Positions 453 through 6,577 of a DNA stretch of 6,861 nt are shown one piece after another. Numbering within the stretch: position 1 is the stretch's first letter; the number at the start of each line of letters is the position of its first letter. The notes under the pieces are model-generated. The model ran no database searches, was not told the origin of the DNA, and saw only the letters and a program-made list of their open reading frames with translations. Source of the stretch: an uncultured Eubacteriales bacterium (GTDB lineage Bacteria; Bacillota_A; Clostridia; Lachnospirales; Lachnospiraceae). The stretch is taken from assembly GCA_902803345.1 (NCBI GenBank), contig CADCPV010000046.1:1-6861 (forward strand), given 5' to 3'. The position numbers and the translations under genes were made by a program.

Positions 453-467
453 AAAGCTCCTCTTTTT
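438..467 (+). terminator. Intrinsic terminator of the thioesterase gene
   Basis: A 10-bp stem (AAGAGGGGCT at 438-447 with AGCTCCTCTT at 455-464, one G-U pair) closes a 7-base loop and runs into a T tract at 463-467. The stop codon of the thioesterase gene lies in the loop, so the terminator begins inside the coding region. Its T tract abuts the -35 of the next promoter. Confidence 0.82.
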
Positions 468-493
468 GTAACCCTACCCTCCAGAATATCGTC
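467..493 (+). promoter_or_regulatory. Putative ECF-type promoter of the sigma/serpin operon
   Basis: TGTAAC (467-472), a 17-base spacer, then CGTC (490-493) matches the bipartite ECF promoter pattern known from Bacillus sigma-X, sigma-M and sigma-W (TGWAAC, 16-17 bases, CGWC). It sits about 55 bases before the sigma factor start and nothing in the gap resembles a housekeeping promoter as well. Autoregulation by the encoded sigma factor is the natural inference. The -35 starts in the last T of the upstream terminator tract. Confidence 0.6.
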
Positions 494-546: not shown

Positions 547-1107
547 ATGGATGACGAGAAGATTATTGAATTGTATTTCGCAAGGGACGAACAGGCTGTA
601 CGCGAAACAGAAGGCCGCTACGGGCCGCTGCTTCGGCGGACTGCGGAAAATGTGCTCGGAAGCCCGGAGGAGGCGGAAGAAGTCGCGAACGATGTGCTGT
701 ACCGGGCCTGGAACAGCATTCCGCCGGAGCGCCCGAAGGTTTTCGGGGCCTGGCTTCGGAAGATCACACGCCGGGCGGCAATCGATGTGCTGAGAACCCG
801 TTCCCGTGAAAAGCGCGGCGGCACGGAGTATGATGTAGCACTGTCTGAAATCGAAGAGATGGCTTCCGATTCGGACGGACCGGAGGATGTGATCGGCGCA
901 AAGGAACTGGCGCGGCTGATCAATGCCTGGCTTAGGACGCTGGACCGGGAAAAACGGCAGGCTTTTGTGCTCCGTTATTTCGATTCGGAAAGCGTCAGAA
1001 GTATTTCAGAAATCCTCATGCGTTCGGAGTCCTGGGTCAAGATCACGCTGATGCGGCTTCGCAGTGCACTTGCGGAATATCTCAGAGGGGAGGGCTATAT
1101 CCTATGA
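547..1107 (+). CDS. ECF-family RNA polymerase sigma factor
   Basis: This 186-residue protein should bind core RNA polymerase and direct it to its own promoter class. The sigma-70 region 2 spans roughly residues 20-90. It includes EEAEEVANDVLYRAW (41-55), the acidic core-binding helix, and FGAWLRKITRRAAIDVLR (66-83), the -10 recognition part. An acidic linker (about 95-118) leads to region 4 (about 120-182), with a helix-turn-helix in RSISEILMRSESWVKITLMR (151-170) for -35 recognition. Where many ECFs have a G-T-V-K or similar turn, this has S-W-V-K. There is no extra C-terminal domain. The start is supported by GGAAAGGA at 531-538, 8 bases before the ATG. The stop overlaps the next start as ATGA, implying translational coupling to the serpin protein, the usual arrangement for a sigma factor and its membrane anti-sigma factor. 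The regulon is unknown. Confidence 0.92.
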   Translation: MDDEKIIELYFARDEQAVRETEGRYGPLLRRTAENVLGSPEEAEEVANDVLYRAWNSIPPERPKVFGAWLRKITRRAAIDVLRTRSREKRGGTEYDVALSEIEEMASDSDGPEDVIGAKELARLINAWLRTLDREKRQAFVLRYFDSESVRSISEILMRSESWVKITLMRLRSALAEYLRGEGYIL

Positions 1108-2624
1108 AAAAAGAACAGTGGAAAGATACATTCAGTGACGCGATGAATGAACTCAGCGATGAATATGTTCAGGAGAGCAGAGAGAATACAAAAAGCGGAA
1201 ATGTCCGGAAAAAGCGCATCATTGCAGGCCTTGCAGTCGGTCTTGCAGCCGCAGCCGCAGTGGTGATCGGCGTAATTGCAGGGCCGAAGATTTTCAGTAA
1301 GGAACCGAAAACGACTGCATCAGGTGTAGTGGTCGAAACACAGGAACCTGAAAACGGGGAGAAAGCAGTGAACATTGAAAACTGTGCGCTTGTCACAGCG
1401 GAGTATCCGGAACGGATTGTGCCGCCTGAGGATTATAACAGCAGCCTGTGGAACGAGAAGTATGAAGAAACCCGCTGGCGCCGGGAACTTGCAAAAAACT
1501 ATGAAGGCAGATTGACGGATTTCACGAAAGAGAGTGTAAAGGCACTGCTTTCGGAAGAAGAAACAAATCCGCTCGGTTCGCCCGCGAATTTCTATCTTGC
1601 GCTTGCAATGCTCGCAGAAGCCTCCGAAGGAGAGACGCGGCAGGAAGTGCTGAATGTCCTCGGAGTCAGCAGCATTGAAGAACTCCGGACGATCACGAAC
1701 GCTTACTGGAATGCAAATTATAATGAAAGCGCATACGAAAACTGTCTTCTTGCCTCCTCTGTCTGGCTGAATAAGGGACTTCCGTATCAGGAGGAGAAGC
1801 TTCTGACCTTCCGGGATCAGTATTACGCTTCCGTTTTCCAGGGACCGATGGGTGATGCCGGGTATGATCAGGCGCTTCGGGACTGGATCAATGACCAGAC
1901 CGGGAATCTTCTGTCGGACAGCCTGAAAGGCCTTTCCATGGATCCGCAGGGTGTGATGAACCTTGTGACGACCGTATACTTTAAGGCAGCCTGGGCAAGC
2001 GTTTTCAATTCGGACCAAACCATAGAGAGTGTCTTCCACGGGAGGGTATCCGATTCGACCGTATCCTTTATGCGTAATGACGGCAATATGACGGCTTACT
2101 ATGCCGGCGAGAAATTCGGTGCGATCAGCCTTCGCTGCGGCGATCAGGGAGAAATGCTTTTCTTCCTCCCGGACGAAGGTGTGGATGTCCGGAGCCTTGT
2201 GGAAGATCCCGAAGCCTTGAGCCTGATGGCAGATTCTTCAGAGGATCTATGGGAAAAGTGGCAGGACAGGATGGCTTACCCGCTTATCCACCTGTATCTC
2301 CCGAAATTCGATATTTCCTCTGAAAAGGACCTGAAGACCTGTATGCAGGAACTTGGAATCGAAAAGGCCTTTTCCATAACAGATGCAGATTTTTCAGGCA
2401 TCCTTAATACGACAGATCCTGTTTTCTTAAGCAAGGTTCAGAACAATCTCCGCGTCGCAATTGATGAGAACGGTGTGACTGCCGCTTCGATGATCGATAT
2501 GATGCTTGCCGGCGCCGCAATACCGGAACAGGAGATCGATTTCAGGCTCGACCGGCCCTTCCTGTTCGCGCTCCGCTCGGATGTCGGAGACCTGCTGTTT
2601 GTCGGTATCGTGGAGCAGCTCTGA
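1104..2624 (+). CDS. Membrane-anchored serpin, probable anti-sigma factor/protease inhibitor
   Basis: A 506-residue protein with three parts. Residues 1-38 are a short charged cytoplasmic segment (MNELSDEYVQES, then RKKR) resembling the N-termini of anti-sigma-like proteins encoded after clostridial ECF genes. There is no HxxxCxxC zinc motif. Residues 39-60 form one hydrophobic Ala/Val/Ile-rich helix, with positive charges on its N side predicting cytoplasmic N-terminus and outside C-terminus. After a linker, residues about 140-506 are a serpin: NPLGSPANFYLALAML (155-170), NLVTTVYFKAAW (286-297), MLFFLPDEG (351-359), LYLPKFDISSEKDL (397-410), ADFSGI (428-433) and DRPFLFAL (483-490). The hinge ENGVTAASM begins at E455 (P17). 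Counting as in antithrombin puts P1-P1' at Ala471-Ala472. Serpins trap serine or cysteine proteases covalently after loop cleavage. GGGGAGGG (1086-1093) precedes the start, which overlaps the sigma stop by 4 bases. The serpin assignment is firm; the anti-sigma role is inferred from position and topology. Confidence 0.9.
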   Translation: MKKEQWKDTFSDAMNELSDEYVQESRENTKSGNVRKKRIIAGLAVGLAAAAAVVIGVIAGPKIFSKEPKTTASGVVVETQEPENGEKAVNIENCALVTAEYPERIVPPEDYNSSLWNEKYEETRWRRELAKNYEGRLTDFTKESVKALLSEEETNPLGSPANFYLALAMLAEASEGETRQEVLNVLGVSSIEELRTITNAYWNANYNESAYENCLLASSVWLNKGLPYQEEKLLTFRDQYYASVFQGPMGDAGYDQALRDWINDQTGNLLSDSLKGLSMDPQGVMNLVTTVYFKAAWASVFNSDQTIESVFHGRVSDSTVSFMRNDGNMTAYYAGEKFGAISLRCGDQGEMLFFLPDEGVDVRSLVEDPEALSLMADSSEDLWEKWQDRMAYPLIHLYLPKFDISSEKDLKTCMQELGIEKAFSITDADFSGILNTTDPVFLSKVQNNLRVAIDENGVTAASMIDMMLAGAAIPEQEIDFRLDRPFLFALRSDVGDLLFVGIVEQL

Positions 2625-2718: not shown

Positions 2719-3840
2719 ATGAGTGATTACTTCGGAAAAGACACGTTCAAGCTCGGATTCGGACTGATGCGGCTGCCGAAGCTTCCAAACGGTGACATTG
2801 ACGTCGAGCAGGTCAAGGTCATGGTCGACAAATTCATCGCGGCGGGCGGAACCTATTTTGATACGGCCTATGTCTACGACGGCGGCAATTCCGAAAAGGC
2901 CGCGGGTGAGGCGCTAATTGCACGCTACCCCAGAGACAGCTATACGATCGCGACGAAGCTGAATGCGCGTGTTGCGGCGAACGCAAAAGACGCGAAAAAG
3001 CAGTTCCTGACCTCGTTAGAGCGCATGGGTCTGGAGTATGTGGACTACTACCTTCTTCATGCAATGCAGGAAGGCAATTTCCGCAAGTACGAGGAGTACG
3101 GCATCTGGGACTATGTGAAGGAACTGAAGGCGGCGGGCAAGATCCGCTACTACGGCTTCTCCTTCCATGATTCGCCGGAGCTTTTGGAGAAGCTTCTCAC
3201 GGAGCATCCGGACGTTGATTTCATTCAGCTTCAGATCAACTATGCAGACTGGGACAACCCGAATGTCGCGTCCCGCCGCTGCTATGAAGTCGCGAGATCT
3301 CACGGCGTTTCGATTACGGTCATGGAGCCTGTGAAGGGCGGGGCTTTAGCGAACCCGATCCCGGAGGTACAGAAGCTTCTGAAAGAAGCAAACCCCGACG
3401 CTTCCTTTGCTTCCTGGGCAATCCGCTATGTGGCGTCGATGGACGGCATCATCACGGTGCTTTCCGGCATGTCGAACATCGCGCAGATGGAGGACAACCT
3501 TTCCTACATGAAGGATTTCAAGCCGCTTTCACAGGAAGAGCAGGGCGTCATCCGCAGGGCACAGGCAGCCCTGAACGCAGCCGGCGAAATCCCCTGCACG
3601 GCCTGCCATTACTGCACGGACGGCTGCCCGATGCAGATAGCGATCCCGGAAATCTTTGCTGCAATCAACGAGTACAAGCGTTATAAAAATGATTTCCAGA
3701 TGCGCCGGAACTACGGGCTCGCGACAAGAAACGGCGGAAAGGCTTCCGACTGTATCCAGTGCGGCCAGTGCGAGGGCGCCTGCCCGCAGCACCTTTCGAT
3801 CATTGAGCTTTTGCAGGAGTGCGCAGCGACGGCAGAGTAA
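2719..3840 (+). CDS. Aldo/keto reductase with C-terminal 4Fe-4S ferredoxin-type domain
   Basis: The 373-residue cytosolic protein is predicted to reduce a carbonyl (or run the reverse reaction), with electrons possibly passing through iron-sulfur clusters; the substrate is unknown. Residues about 10-275 form the aldo/keto reductase barrel: GFGLMRLP (13-20), YFDTAYVYDGG (46-56), ATKLN (78-82) and YLLHAM (111-116). The catalytic tetrad is readable as Asp48, Tyr53, Lys80 and His114. The C-terminal region carries two Cys sets, C293-C296-C299-C303-P and C345-C348-C351-C355-P. Both are of the CxxCxxCxxxCP type, enough for two 4Fe-4S clusters. Such fusions are common in anaerobic Firmicutes. AAGGAGGA at 2704-2711, 7 bases upstream of the ATG, fixes the start. 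No intrinsic terminator is evident between its stop and the riboswitch promoter. It appears monocistronic and its neighbours do not reveal its pathway. Confidence 0.93.
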   Translation: MSDYFGKDTFKLGFGLMRLPKLPNGDIDVEQVKVMVDKFIAAGGTYFDTAYVYDGGNSEKAAGEALIARYPRDSYTIATKLNARVAANAKDAKKQFLTSLERMGLEYVDYYLLHAMQEGNFRKYEEYGIWDYVKELKAAGKIRYYGFSFHDSPELLEKLLTEHPDVDFIQLQINYADWDNPNVASRRCYEVARSHGVSITVMEPVKGGALANPIPEVQKLLKEANPDASFASWAIRYVASMDGIITVLSGMSNIAQMEDNLSYMKDFKPLSQEEQGVIRRAQAALNAAGEIPCTACHYCTDGCPMQIAIPEIFAAINEYKRYKNDFQMRRNYGLATRNGGKASDCIQCGQCEGACPQHLSIIELLQECAATAE

Positions 3841-4092: not shown

Positions 4093-4139
4093 AAGACCAT
4101 CGCTGATTTTACGGAAGTGTTTTCTGTTTGTTTTACCTG

Positions 4140-4163
4140 AGAGCCGGTTCTGCCGGCTCTTTT
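4140..4163 (+). terminator. Riboswitch-controlled intrinsic terminator
   Basis: An 8-bp stem AGAGCCGG (4140-4147) with CCGGCTCT (4153-4160) closes a 5-base loop and is followed by TTTT (4160-4163). It lies 47 bases after aptamer 2 and 51 bases before the symporter start. The segment CCTGAGAG (4136-4143), which includes the first four bases of the stem, is the exact reverse complement of the conserved CTCTCAGG of aptamer 2 (4072-4079). This provides a competing pairing and makes the segment the expression platform. Confidence 0.85.
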
Positions 4164-4214
4164 GCTGTTTCCAATGCTTCGGAAGAGAAAAGGAAGAGGA
4201 GTAAAGGGGGAATT

Positions 4215-5759
4215 ATGGAACAGTTTCTGGAAAAACTGACAGACGTCAACAATGTGATCAACAGCTATGTATGGACGCGTATCGGCCTGTGGCTTCTGAT
4301 TGCAGTCGGCGTAATCATGACTGTGGCAACCGGCTTTTTTCAGGTCGGGCATCTCCGCTACTGGATGAAGCAGACGATCGGCAGCATCTTCAAGAAGCAC
4401 GTCATCGGTCACACGAAGGAGCGCGGCGCGATTTCGCCGTTCCAGGCACTCTGCACGGCGCTTGCCGCAACCATCGGAACCGGCAATATCGCAGGCGTCG
4501 CAGGCGCCATCACAATCGGCGGCGCAGGCGCGGTATTCTGGATGTGGATCGCAGCCTTTTTCGGCATGATGACAAACTATTCGGAAAACGTGCTCGGTAT
4601 TTATTTCCGCCGCAGAAACGATAAGGGCGAATGGTCCGGCGGCGCGATGTATTACCTTGCGGACGGTCTCGGCGGTTATAAGAACATGAAAGTGGTCGGA
4701 AAGGTGCTCGCGATCATGTTTGCAATCTTCGCGGTTCTTGCGTCCTTCGGTATCGGCAACATGGGCCAGACCAACAAGATTGTCGCAAATATCGAGGCAG
4801 CCTTCCCGATTCAGGCACTTTCTTCGAAGGTCCTGTACGGAAATATTACGGTTTATGCGCTTGTGATCGGACTTGTCCTGATGGTCCTTGCCGGACTCAT
4901 TATTCTCGGCGGACTGAAGCGGATCGCTTCCTTTGCGGAGAAAATCGTTCCCTTCATGGTGATTCTGTTTGTCCTCGGATCGCTGTTTATCATCGGGAAA
5001 AACTATCAGGAAATCCTGCCGGCTTTCGGTGCAATTTTCAAAACCGCTTTCAAGCCGGTTGCAGTCGCGGGCGGAACCATCGGCTACCTGATCTCGGTCG
5101 TTGTGACGCAGGGCTTCAAGCGCGGCGTTTTCAGTAACGAAGCAGGTTTGGGCTCTTCTGTCATGGTCCACAGCAATTCGAATGTTGCAGAGCCTGTGAC
5201 GCAGGGCATCTGGGGCATATTTGAAGTTTTTGCCGACACGATCGTTGTCTGTACAATGACCGCACTTGTAATCCTGACCTCCGGCGTATACAACCTGTCA
5301 ACCGGAACGCTTCTGGAGGGCACCACCGACGCGACGCTTGTCGCCTCCGCCTTCAACAGTGTCTTCCCCTGGTTCAATATCGGTCAGCGTTTCGTCGCAG
5401 TCGCGATGTTCCTGTTCGCCTTTACGACGATCCTCGGCTGGTCCCATTACGGTGCGAAAGCTGTGGAATACCTTCTCGGAAGCAAGGGCGTCCTGATTTA
5501 CCGGATCCTCTTTGTATTGATGGTGGTCGCCGGCGGCATGATGACTTCCTCTCTTGCCTGGGACATATCCGACACCTTCAACGGCCTCATGATGATCCCG
5601 AACCTGATCGGTGTCGTTGCGCTGATGCCGCTCGTCCGGAAGATCACCAAAAACTATATGGACCGCCGCATGCACAATAAGAAAATCGCCGCGATCCTTT
5701 CCTTCGACGAAAAGACCCAGGCCGAAGCAGAAGCGCGCGTGAAAGACGGCGCGATGTAA
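4215..5759 (+). CDS. Alanine/glycine:cation symporter, AGCS family
   Basis: A 514-residue polytopic membrane protein that probably imports alanine or glycine with sodium or protons. Family motifs are FQALCTALAATIGTGNIAGV (76-95), GGAGAVFWMWIAAFFGM (102-118), SGGAMYYLADG (141-151), and the signature FKRGVFSNEAGLGSS (301-315), followed by TQGIWGIFEVFADTIVVCTMTALVILTSG (329-357, in two pieces TQGIWGIFEVFA and DTIVVCTMTA). About ten to eleven hydrophobic segments can be counted between residues 22 and 475. The tail from about 476 is charged and cytoplasmic. The ATG at 4215 is chosen because AAAGGGGG at 4203-4210 precedes it and the family N-terminus (short amphipathic helix, then the first membrane segment) begins there. 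An in-frame TTG at 4128 would run through the terminator hairpin. The glycine riboswitch upstream strongly supports glycine as a physiological substrate or signal. Confidence 0.95.
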   Translation: MEQFLEKLTDVNNVINSYVWTRIGLWLLIAVGVIMTVATGFFQVGHLRYWMKQTIGSIFKKHVIGHTKERGAISPFQALCTALAATIGTGNIAGVAGAITIGGAGAVFWMWIAAFFGMMTNYSENVLGIYFRRRNDKGEWSGGAMYYLADGLGGYKNMKVVGKVLAIMFAIFAVLASFGIGNMGQTNKIVANIEAAFPIQALSSKVLYGNITVYALVIGLVLMVLAGLIILGGLKRIASFAEKIVPFMVILFVLGSLFIIGKNYQEILPAFGAIFKTAFKPVAVAGGTIGYLISVVVTQGFKRGVFSNEAGLGSSVMVHSNSNVAEPVTQGIWGIFEVFADTIVVCTMTALVILTSGVYNLSTGTLLEGTTDATLVASAFNSVFPWFNIGQRFVAVAMFLFAFTTILGWSHYGAKAVEYLLGSKGVLIYRILFVLMVVAGGMMTSSLAWDISDTFNGLMMIPNLIGVVALMPLVRKITKNYMDRRMHNKKIAAILSFDEKTQAEAEARVKDGAM

Positions 5760-5881: not shown

Positions 5882-6577
5882 TTATGGCTTCGTCGCCGGG
5901 ATTTCGCGCGCGACGGAGCCGTCGGGATTGTATTCCGTGCCGTCGTAATCACCCATTTCCTGAATTTCGAGGCCGTTTTCGTCGGTCACACCGGTTCCGC
6001 CCCAGCCGCACCACATCTCGACGTAATTGTCGGGAGAGAGCATCGTGTAGGTATAGGCGCAGGACCCGGCGCCTGTGAGATCACCCGTTTCCATATCATA
6101 GGTGTAGAATTCCTGCACGCACTGCACATCCGGGCTGCCCTCAGTATAAGTATAATAGGTGCGGAATTCCACGTGAAAGTCGTATTCCTCGCTCTTTTTC
6201 TCCTCCAAAAACTCCCGTACGCGGCCTTTTTCGTCTTTGACATGGGTTTCGACACCCTGCACGTCTTCGAAGGTGAAGGGCTCTTCCTCTCTGGTCCAGC
6301 CTTCCGGAAGCGCATCCGGATCGGGCTCTTTTGAAGTTTCTTCCGTGGTCTCCTCCGTGGTTTCTTCGGTTGTTTCCTCCGTTGTCGTTTCGGTTGTCTC
6401 TTCCTCCGTCGTTGTTTCCGTGGGAGCTGCCGTCGTGGTGGGCGCCTCGGTTTCGGCAGAGGTTCTTGTCTCGTCACCGTAATCGTCGATATTAACTTTT
6501 GCCTTCTCTACCTTGCAGCCTGAAAGCAGGCTGATCAGAAGAACCGCTGTAAGCAGCCGGGCGATTGTCTTTTTCAT
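5882..6577 (-). CDS. Lipoprotein with Thr/Glu repeat linker, unknown function
   Basis: A 231-residue exported lipoprotein. The N-terminus is a signal peptide with KK, a hydrophobic stretch and the lipobox LLSG-C (Cys21), predicting lipid anchoring to the outer face of the membrane. Residues about 40-88 form a disordered, low-complexity linker made of Thr, Glu, Ala and Pro, with near-perfect TTEE repeats at 66-81. Residues about 90-231 make a soluble domain with many Tyr, Thr, Asp and Gly residues and three cysteines (153, 173, 190), for example FYTYDMETGDLTGAG and YVEMWCGWGGTG. I do not recognise the domain; alternating Tyr/Thr strands suggest a beta-rich fold. AAGGAGGTG (6582-6590, minus strand) stands 4 bases before the ATG and fixes the start. 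That site overlaps the stop codon of the upstream gene, and the 11-base gap implies one operon. The plus-strand hairpin at 5788-5834 ends it. Confidence 0.88.
   Translation of the reverse strand: MKKTIARLLTAVLLISLLSGCKVEKAKVNIDDYGDETRTSAETEAPTTTAAPTETTTEEETTETTTEETTEETTEETTEETSKEPDPDALPEGWTREEEPFTFEDVQGVETHVKDEKGRVREFLEEKKSEEYDFHVEFRTYYTYTEGSPDVQCVQEFYTYDMETGDLTGAGSCAYTYTMLSPDNYVEMWCGWGGTGVTDENGLEIQEMGDYDGTEYNPDGSVAREIPATKP
6332..6421 (-). repeat. Degenerate 12-base coding repeat (TTEE linker)
   Basis: This stretch encodes lipoprotein residues 53-82, where Thr-Thr-Glu-Glu recurs. The DNA repeats with period 12 but synonymous positions vary (GAA/GAG and the ACN codons), so the repeat is conserved at protein level more than at DNA level. 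It probably forms an extended spacer between membrane anchor and domain. Confidence 0.75.

Follow-up and report, generated by a model that had tools for sequence, protein, structure and literature searches.

In the window, the whole stretch of 6,861 nucleotides analyzed here, two overlapping genes probably encode an ECF sigma factor and a membrane anti-sigma factor whose serpin outer domain reports protease attack. We assign this reading a probability of about 0.6. Comparison with relatives supports the view that the ECF gene, the cytoplasmic head, and the serpin form one unit, and the anti-sigma role of the head-bearing serpin protein is well supported by the same comparison. From this unit and by analogy with known anti-sigma factors, we infer that the head restrains the sigma factor. 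The proposed trigger, protease attack on the reactive loop, is less well supported, and release of the sigma factor would follow from such an attack.

Organization of the two-gene locus

The first gene (547 to 1107, plus strand) encodes a sigma factor of 186 residues. Region 2 (approximately residues 24–87) and region 4 (approximately residues 129–175) were detected by the Pfam models Sigma70_r2 and Sigma70_r4_2, both above the cut-off. With regions 2 and 4 only and a length within the ~150–200 residues of the group, the protein is an ECF sigma factor. Its stop codon overlaps the start codon of the second gene in an ATGA (1104 to 1107), and this gene (1104 to 2624, plus strand) encodes a single-pass membrane protein consisting of a cytoplasmic head, a transmembrane helix, a stalk, and a serpin domain on the outside. 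Hydropathy places the helix at approximately residues 39–58 (1218 to 1277), and hydropathy combined with the positive-inside rule predicts that the protein spans the membrane once, with its N-terminal segment in the cytoplasm. The head (residues 1–38; 1104 to 1217) is anti-sigma-like, and two helices (residues 3–15 and 20–29) were weakly predicted in it with low confidence. It contains neither Cys nor His and lacks the HxxxCxxC motif that zinc-type (ZAS) anti-sigma factors carry in their cytoplasmic domain.

The stalk (approximately residues 59–88; 1278 to 1367) is probably disordered, as the block pLDDT of the model is 30–57. It is followed by an ordered N-terminal extension of the serpin (approximately residues 89–137; 1368 to 1514), delineated by the model and structure alignment, and by the serpin domain (residues 138–504; 1515 to 2615), which was defined by its Pfam match, the model, and structure matches. 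PF00079 was the only Pfam family above the cut-off in this protein, which is a member of the serpin superfamily by fold and Pfam match. The hinge and reactive-center loop (residues 455–475, ENGVTAASMIDMMLAGAAIPE; 2466 to 2528) were assigned from the sequence and the model. The initial annotation had described the ATGA overlap, a cytoplasmic head of ~38 residues, a single membrane helix, and a serpin on the outside, and all of these were confirmed in the window.

A candidate autoregulatory promoter of the ECF type (TGTAAC - 17 bp - CGTC; 467 to 493, plus strand) was found by pattern match. A G+C-rich hairpin with a T-run, judged by eye, lies at 440–472 behind a thioesterase-like gene (6–452) and leads straight into the −35-like TGTAAC of this candidate. 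Further along the window are an aldo/keto reductase with 4Fe-4S domains (2719–3840) and a sodium:alanine symporter (4128–5759). The nearest syntenic kin among the examined loci is a MAG contig (L030; isolate RUG11805) that starts inside the serpin and shows 83–87% DNA identity to the window over the reductase and symporter regions. On the minus strand, 5882–6577 is predicted to encode a lipoprotein whose stalk is repetitive and rich in Thr and Glu (TTTEEETTETTTEETTEE...); no family was found in it above the cut-off.

Association of the head with ECF genes

A protein search with the window serpin yielded 598 relatives, and in 103 of the best 120 of them at least 29 residues precede the membrane helix; the remaining 17 are lipoproteins, forms with a short N terminus, or fragments. 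Residues 1–24 of six close relatives (P0002–P0006 and P0009) are identical to those of the window at 17–22 of the 24 positions, even in P0006 and P0009, whose overall identities are 46% and 44%, respectively. Another close relative, P0007, has no head at the start of its predicted protein. Scanning one genome per species identified 484 confirmed relatives, and the best 80 loci were examined. An ECF gene lies directly upstream of the serpin gene in 49 of the 80 loci, or 50 with L016, where only the C terminus of the ECF protein is visible at the contig edge and was counted by eye; 50/80 is not a prevalence figure because the loci were picked by similarity to headed proteins. The same 4-bp gene overlap occurs in 29 of the 49 loci, as judged by automatic start choice. 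Sigma70_r2 was matched by all 50 ECF proteins (the window and the 49) and Sigma70_r4_2 by 42 of them. The gene pairing, a point set beforehand as a possible refutation, is thus kept across the relatives (50 of 80 loci). As expected for a membrane anti-sigma factor, its gene follows an ECF gene directly and is conserved together with it.

A profile of the head was cross-validated in two folds, half of the sequences being used for training and the rest for testing. Among the 80 loci, 46 (including L016) have both head and ECF gene, one has the head only, four have an ECF gene without this head, and 29 have neither; 46 of the 47 cross-validated common-head serpins therefore come with an ECF gene, in folds that were blind to relatedness (the heads of L022 and L039, which fall across folds, share 20 of 26 leading residues). 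The sole exception, L025, has just 300 bp of upstream sequence. The four ECF-linked serpins outside the profile carry other heads, namely the window's own long type (L001) and a YKxA type (L042, L065, and L069) accompanied by diverged sigma factors. The 29 loci with neither comprise 28 lipoproteins and one fragment (L030). Each of the 28 full-length serpins without a head fits a loose lipobox pattern, and no ECF gene was found upstream of the 27 that have at least 400 bp of upstream sequence; the 28th (L068) starts at a contig end.

Run against 10 whole genomes, the profile gave 26 matches, of which 9 are serpins and 17 are non-serpin proteins (L090–L106). All 9 serpins (several being training sequences) and 16 of the 17 other proteins lie directly behind an ECF gene, and the head is therefore a module that accompanies ECF genes whatever its outer part. 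The outer parts of the 17 proteins are varied, and the consensus of their heads is M-K-x-E-x-L-x-x-A-I-G-x-x-D. Pfam detected no serpin in any of them (for L098, over the part contained in its locus). L106 matched DUF4367 just above the cut-off, L103 matched DUF4179 below threshold (18.2 bits versus a cut-off of 30.1), and the remaining 15 had no Pfam match at E up to 0.01. No Pfam family was named for the head itself in the 17 proteins scanned, and it looks like an undescribed anti-sigma domain family. The weakest matches, L096 and L097 (E about 0.008), cover part of the profile only, and L097, a weak partial match, has no visible ECF gene. L098 lies behind an ECF gene whose own profile match is weaker (4e-12); the same head is followed there by what seems to be the beginning of a membrane protein whose hydrophobic segment is longer.

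The head also co-varies with the sigma factor. In 49 systems, head distance tracks sigma distance when serpin distance is held constant (partial r 0.51), and in the 46 systems without YKxA heads the partial r is 0.32; none of 2000 permutations gave values as high. Sigma and serpin distances are barely correlated with each other (r 0.11–0.16).

An order-wide sample covered 147 genomes from the same order as the Flavonifractor genome G001; matches were obtained in 55 of them, and 30 loci were examined. The common head occurs with an ECF gene in 11 loci and without one in a single locus (L219, with 1.5 kb upstream visible), 6 loci have an ECF gene and a different head, and 12 have neither. Eight of the 11 are new, as L207 and L209 are the same as L003 and L047, and the serpin domain of L211 is identical to that of L079. 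All six ECF-linked serpins lacking the common head bear another head, typed by eye: YKxA in L217 and L223, a 'KYLYDATAHI'-like head in L226, L228, and L229 (L226 and L229 being near-copies), and 'KNKDEL' in L225. Among the 12 loci with neither, L231 has a 33-residue N-terminal segment of other sequence, with no ECF gene in view. In L224, L227, and L230, a short arginine-rich anchor of ~12 residues stands before the membrane helix without an ECF gene, which is the plain anchored form.

In a quick serpin-domain tree of 119 rows, 37 of the 115 inner branches are starred. The head state takes 26 changes, and the six YKxA heads take 6, at least 5 of them on supported branches. Most of 200 pairings yield seven independent pairs on starred branches, and the head accompanies the ECF gene in all 7 (p 0.016); a few pairings give 6 of 6 (p 0.031). 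For the first 80 loci, the head labels behind these pairs were given with the ECF gene already in view; the cross-validated profile agrees for 46 of these loci, and the remaining ones and the order-wide alternative heads were labeled by eye, with L231 (33 residues) and L206 (22 residues) as 'anchor'. The near-orthologues L223 and L206 (80% identical proteins, 90% identical neighboring DNA, and 84% identical serpin DNA) provide a close-range case. L223 has the ECF gene and a full head, and in L206 the ECF stretch is missing and the head is shortened, with the membrane helix and serpin retained, a case in nature of the ECF gene and full head being lost or gained together. The genome of L206 (G001) also has an ECF-coupled serpin elsewhere (L003/L081). 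The comparison supports the view that serpins occur fused to several dissimilar heads, an ECF gene accompanying each of them. The earlier proposal that the cytoplasmic segment is conserved along with the sigma factor is borne out by the cross-validated table, the order-wide sample, the tree pairs, and the identity of the first 24 residues (17–22 of 24).

At the level of the class, a serpin is present in 120 of 291 genomes. A sample of 100 serpin loci was drawn by hand, one each from 100 of the 120 serpin-positive genomes and mostly the best-scoring listed serpin per genome; the 20 omitted genomes had mainly truncated or contig-edge matches. An upstream ECF gene was found in 1 of the 100 loci (L201), in a sample that is non-random and under-represents the window's clade because of the locus choice and the omitted genomes. 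Most of the others are lipoproteins or secreted. In L130, L189, and L196, less than 450 bp precede the matched domain, and L189, at a contig end, has a YKxA head. Only a minority of clostridial serpins are coupled to an ECF gene, rare at 1 of 100 sampled, and the coupling was seen mainly in the window's serpin clade.

The promoter pattern TG[ATC]AAC-N15-18-CGT[ACT], which follows the ECF promoter consensus and was chosen after sight of the window site, occurs upstream of 5 of the 50 ECF genes (the window, L001, L011, L031, and L063) and not of the other 45; across 200 shuffles, the mean was 0.28 and the maximum 3. It is also present before 2 of 25 lipoprotein serpins (L028 and L041; TGAAAC-N16/17-CGTC, ~60–70 bp upstream), which have no neighboring ECF gene and may possibly be controlled in trans. 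An open promoter motif search gave nothing clear, being dominated by ribosome-binding-site-like and low-complexity pairs.

Proposed mechanism and rival explanations

Here, we propose a mechanism for the window's system. The head (residues 1–38) would tether the sigma factor to the membrane, with the serpin outside. When a serine protease attacks the reactive loop, the serpin would trap the protease and change its shape irreversibly; the protease is probably elastase-like because small residues surround P1. The shape change would alter the membrane-proximal segment and expose the stalk to site-1 cleavage, followed by intramembrane proteolysis. The ordered extension (residues 89–137) is a plausible relay to the stalk. 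In tengpin, an N-terminal extension maintains the native state (PMC6718151), and by this role loop insertion could loosen the stalk-adjacent segment and open it to site-1 cleavage. The freed sigma factor would transcribe its own operon, yielding more serpin and probably other defense genes, so that the system would act as a single-use alarm that also neutralizes the attacker. A further proposal, to which we give somewhat less than even odds, is a suicide-substrate alarm in which the irreversible stressed-to-relaxed transition of the serpin, set off by one molecule of a host or rival protease, is the ECF input, and in which such receptors have been assembled several times in gut Clostridia via different anti-sigma heads.

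With P-numbering counted from the hinge, P1–P1′ is probably A471–A472. The hinge of inhibitory serpins (P17–P9) is ExGTEAAAA, where x is Glu, Lys, or Arg (PMC8233489). The window hinge, ENGVTAASM, matches this consensus at P17, P15, P12, and P11 and differs at P16, P14, P13, P10, and P9. P9 is Met in the window and mostly Tyr or Phe in relatives, P14 is mostly Val or Cys, and many relatives have EEG[VC]xAAA(Y/F). The reactive loops of headed, ECF-linked serpins and of lipoprotein serpins are alike; the loop is therefore not specialized for signaling, and the target proteases are probably similar. In the window model, residues 460–471 of the loop have pLDDT values below 50, and alignment to native tengpin, judged from its end residues only, starts at residue 91. 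Cleaved or loop-inserted serpins account for many of the best structural matches, and for this reason the model is silent on the native state. The sigma factor and head of L001 were modeled together with AlphaFold as a read-through fusion, from an alignment of this fusion, the L065 read-through fusion, and sigma-only rows. In the L001 fusion (pTM 0.62), the sigma part is confident and the head is a helix of intermediate confidence (block pLDDT values of 48–82), and the model carries no interface information. The top Foldseek matches of the L001 model are ECF sigma factors, several from sigma/anti-sigma complexes, and are uninformative on the head. An A-x-A signal-peptidase-like (site-1-like) motif after the transmembrane helix is absent from the window stalk, as inspected by eye. 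Such a motif occurs in 35 of 51 headed serpins (23.0 expected by shuffling) and, similarly enriched, in 16 of 27 lipoprotein serpins (10.0 expected; L033 left out), and it is therefore not specific to headed serpins.

The sigma factor might merely drive production of a membrane-anchored serpin, the N terminus being an anchor that passes no signal inward. This view accords with the lipoprotein serpins of the same clade, which are anchored without a neighboring ECF gene, and with the 33-residue N-terminal segment of L231, where no ECF gene is in view. For an anchor alone, however, a lipobox (28 loci) or the bare basic anchor of ~12 residues (L224, L227, and L230, without an ECF gene) would suffice. 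The head accompanies the ECF gene, also on the 17 non-serpin proteins, 16 of which follow ECF genes, and its first 24 residues are conserved far above the whole protein in the window's distant relatives. The anchor-only alternative raised in the initial annotation is thus disfavored and now very unlikely, since serpins that lack an ECF gene mostly have a lipobox or a bare basic anchor in place of the head, with L231 as an exception.

The protein could also be an anti-sigma factor in which the stalk or the head-proximal region is the protease target, so that a clip by any surface protease frees the sigma factor and the serpin just protects the cell or the stalk. The long stalk, modeled with low confidence as if disordered, and the likeness of the reactive loops in ECF-linked and lipoprotein serpins fit this explanation, which we consider unlikely but worth weighing. 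A simple clip site would not need the ordered extension that joins the stalk to the serpin body, an argument that is weak because lipoprotein serpins share its conserved YP-containing segment. That the serpin domain is instead a non-inhibitory sensor of a ligand, heat, or crowding, with loop insertion as a reversible or one-way switch, is suggested by the departure of ENGVTAASM from the inhibitory consensus (PMC8233489); yet P17, P15, P12, and P11 fit, and many relatives have EEG[VC]xAAA(Y/F); we regard a non-inhibitory sensor as quite improbable. Against the preferred reading of an anti-sigma factor reporting protease attack, we count the partly canonical hinge, the promoter motif at 5 of 50 ECF genes, the lack of an AxA motif specific to headed serpins, the shared loops, and the class-wide 1 of 100, as well as the headed or head-like proteins without a visible ECF gene (L025, L219, and L097) and the other N-terminal segment of L231.

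Relation to known systems and significance

The closest known system is SigV/RsiV of Bacillus subtilis and Clostridioides difficile, which also pairs an ECF factor with a single-pass anti-sigma factor, the N-terminal region of RsiV being cytosolic (PMC5014341, PMC6066255). The outer domain of RsiV binds and inhibits the enzyme that it senses, lysozyme, and site-1 and then site-2 cleavage follow (PMC5014341, PMC6066255). RsiV, which has been placed in ECF30 (PMC6066255), is a precedent, and sensing by an inhibitor domain is therefore already known. In contrast to RsiV, the outer domain here is a serpin in place of DUF4163/DUF3298, a protease rather than lysozyme is the expected target, the serpin would react irreversibly, and the window head is of another sequence type. 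Pfam gave no match to DUF4179, DUF4163, or DUF3298 in the window protein at E up to 1, and with the RsiV domains absent, the protein lies outside the RsiV family. The YKxA heads of L042, L065, L069, L217, and L223 presumably resemble RsiV-type heads.

Further comparisons are with SigI, a different type of sigma factor, and with the serpin of Bifidobacterium breve, whose expression reportedly responds to proteases by way of a separate sensor kinase and regulator, the serpin itself not being the sensor. SigI/RsgI of cellulolytic clostridia are likewise sigma/anti-sigma pairs with exchangeable outer sensor domains, but the accessible text names carbohydrate-binding or glycosidase modules as these domains rather than protease inhibitors (PMC3413522). 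The B. breve protein, under a two-component system, is also a gut bacterial serpin with autoregulated expression (cited in PMC8201313). For Siropins, tengpin, and other secreted or lipoprotein bacterial serpins, the accessible text of PMC5127057 mentions neither a sigma partner nor a cytoplasmic head; Siropin 2 is predicted to be extracellular and Siropin 1 intracellular (PMC5127057). No description of a serpin acting as an anti-sigma factor was found in the accessible literature, which does not cover the large ECF reclassification. We know of no described sigma-factor pathway with a serpin receptor. The earlier statement that no system of this kind had been described stands insofar as no serpin so used was found, but it must be narrowed, since RsiV/SigV already combines inhibition and sensing for lysozyme (PMC5014341).

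If the proposed reading is true, this would be the first known sigma-factor pathway with a serpin as the receptor. The functions of bacterial serpins have been called relatively enigmatic (PMC8233489), and the reading would give them a signaling role. Serine proteases are raised in inflammatory bowel disease (PMC8201313), and the perception of host and microbial serine proteases by gut commensals becomes testable. The short modular head, for which Pfam offered no family name among the 17 scanned proteins, would couple varied outer domains to ECF factors. With such a pair, gut and rumen Clostridia may both block a protease attack and signal it to the cell interior.
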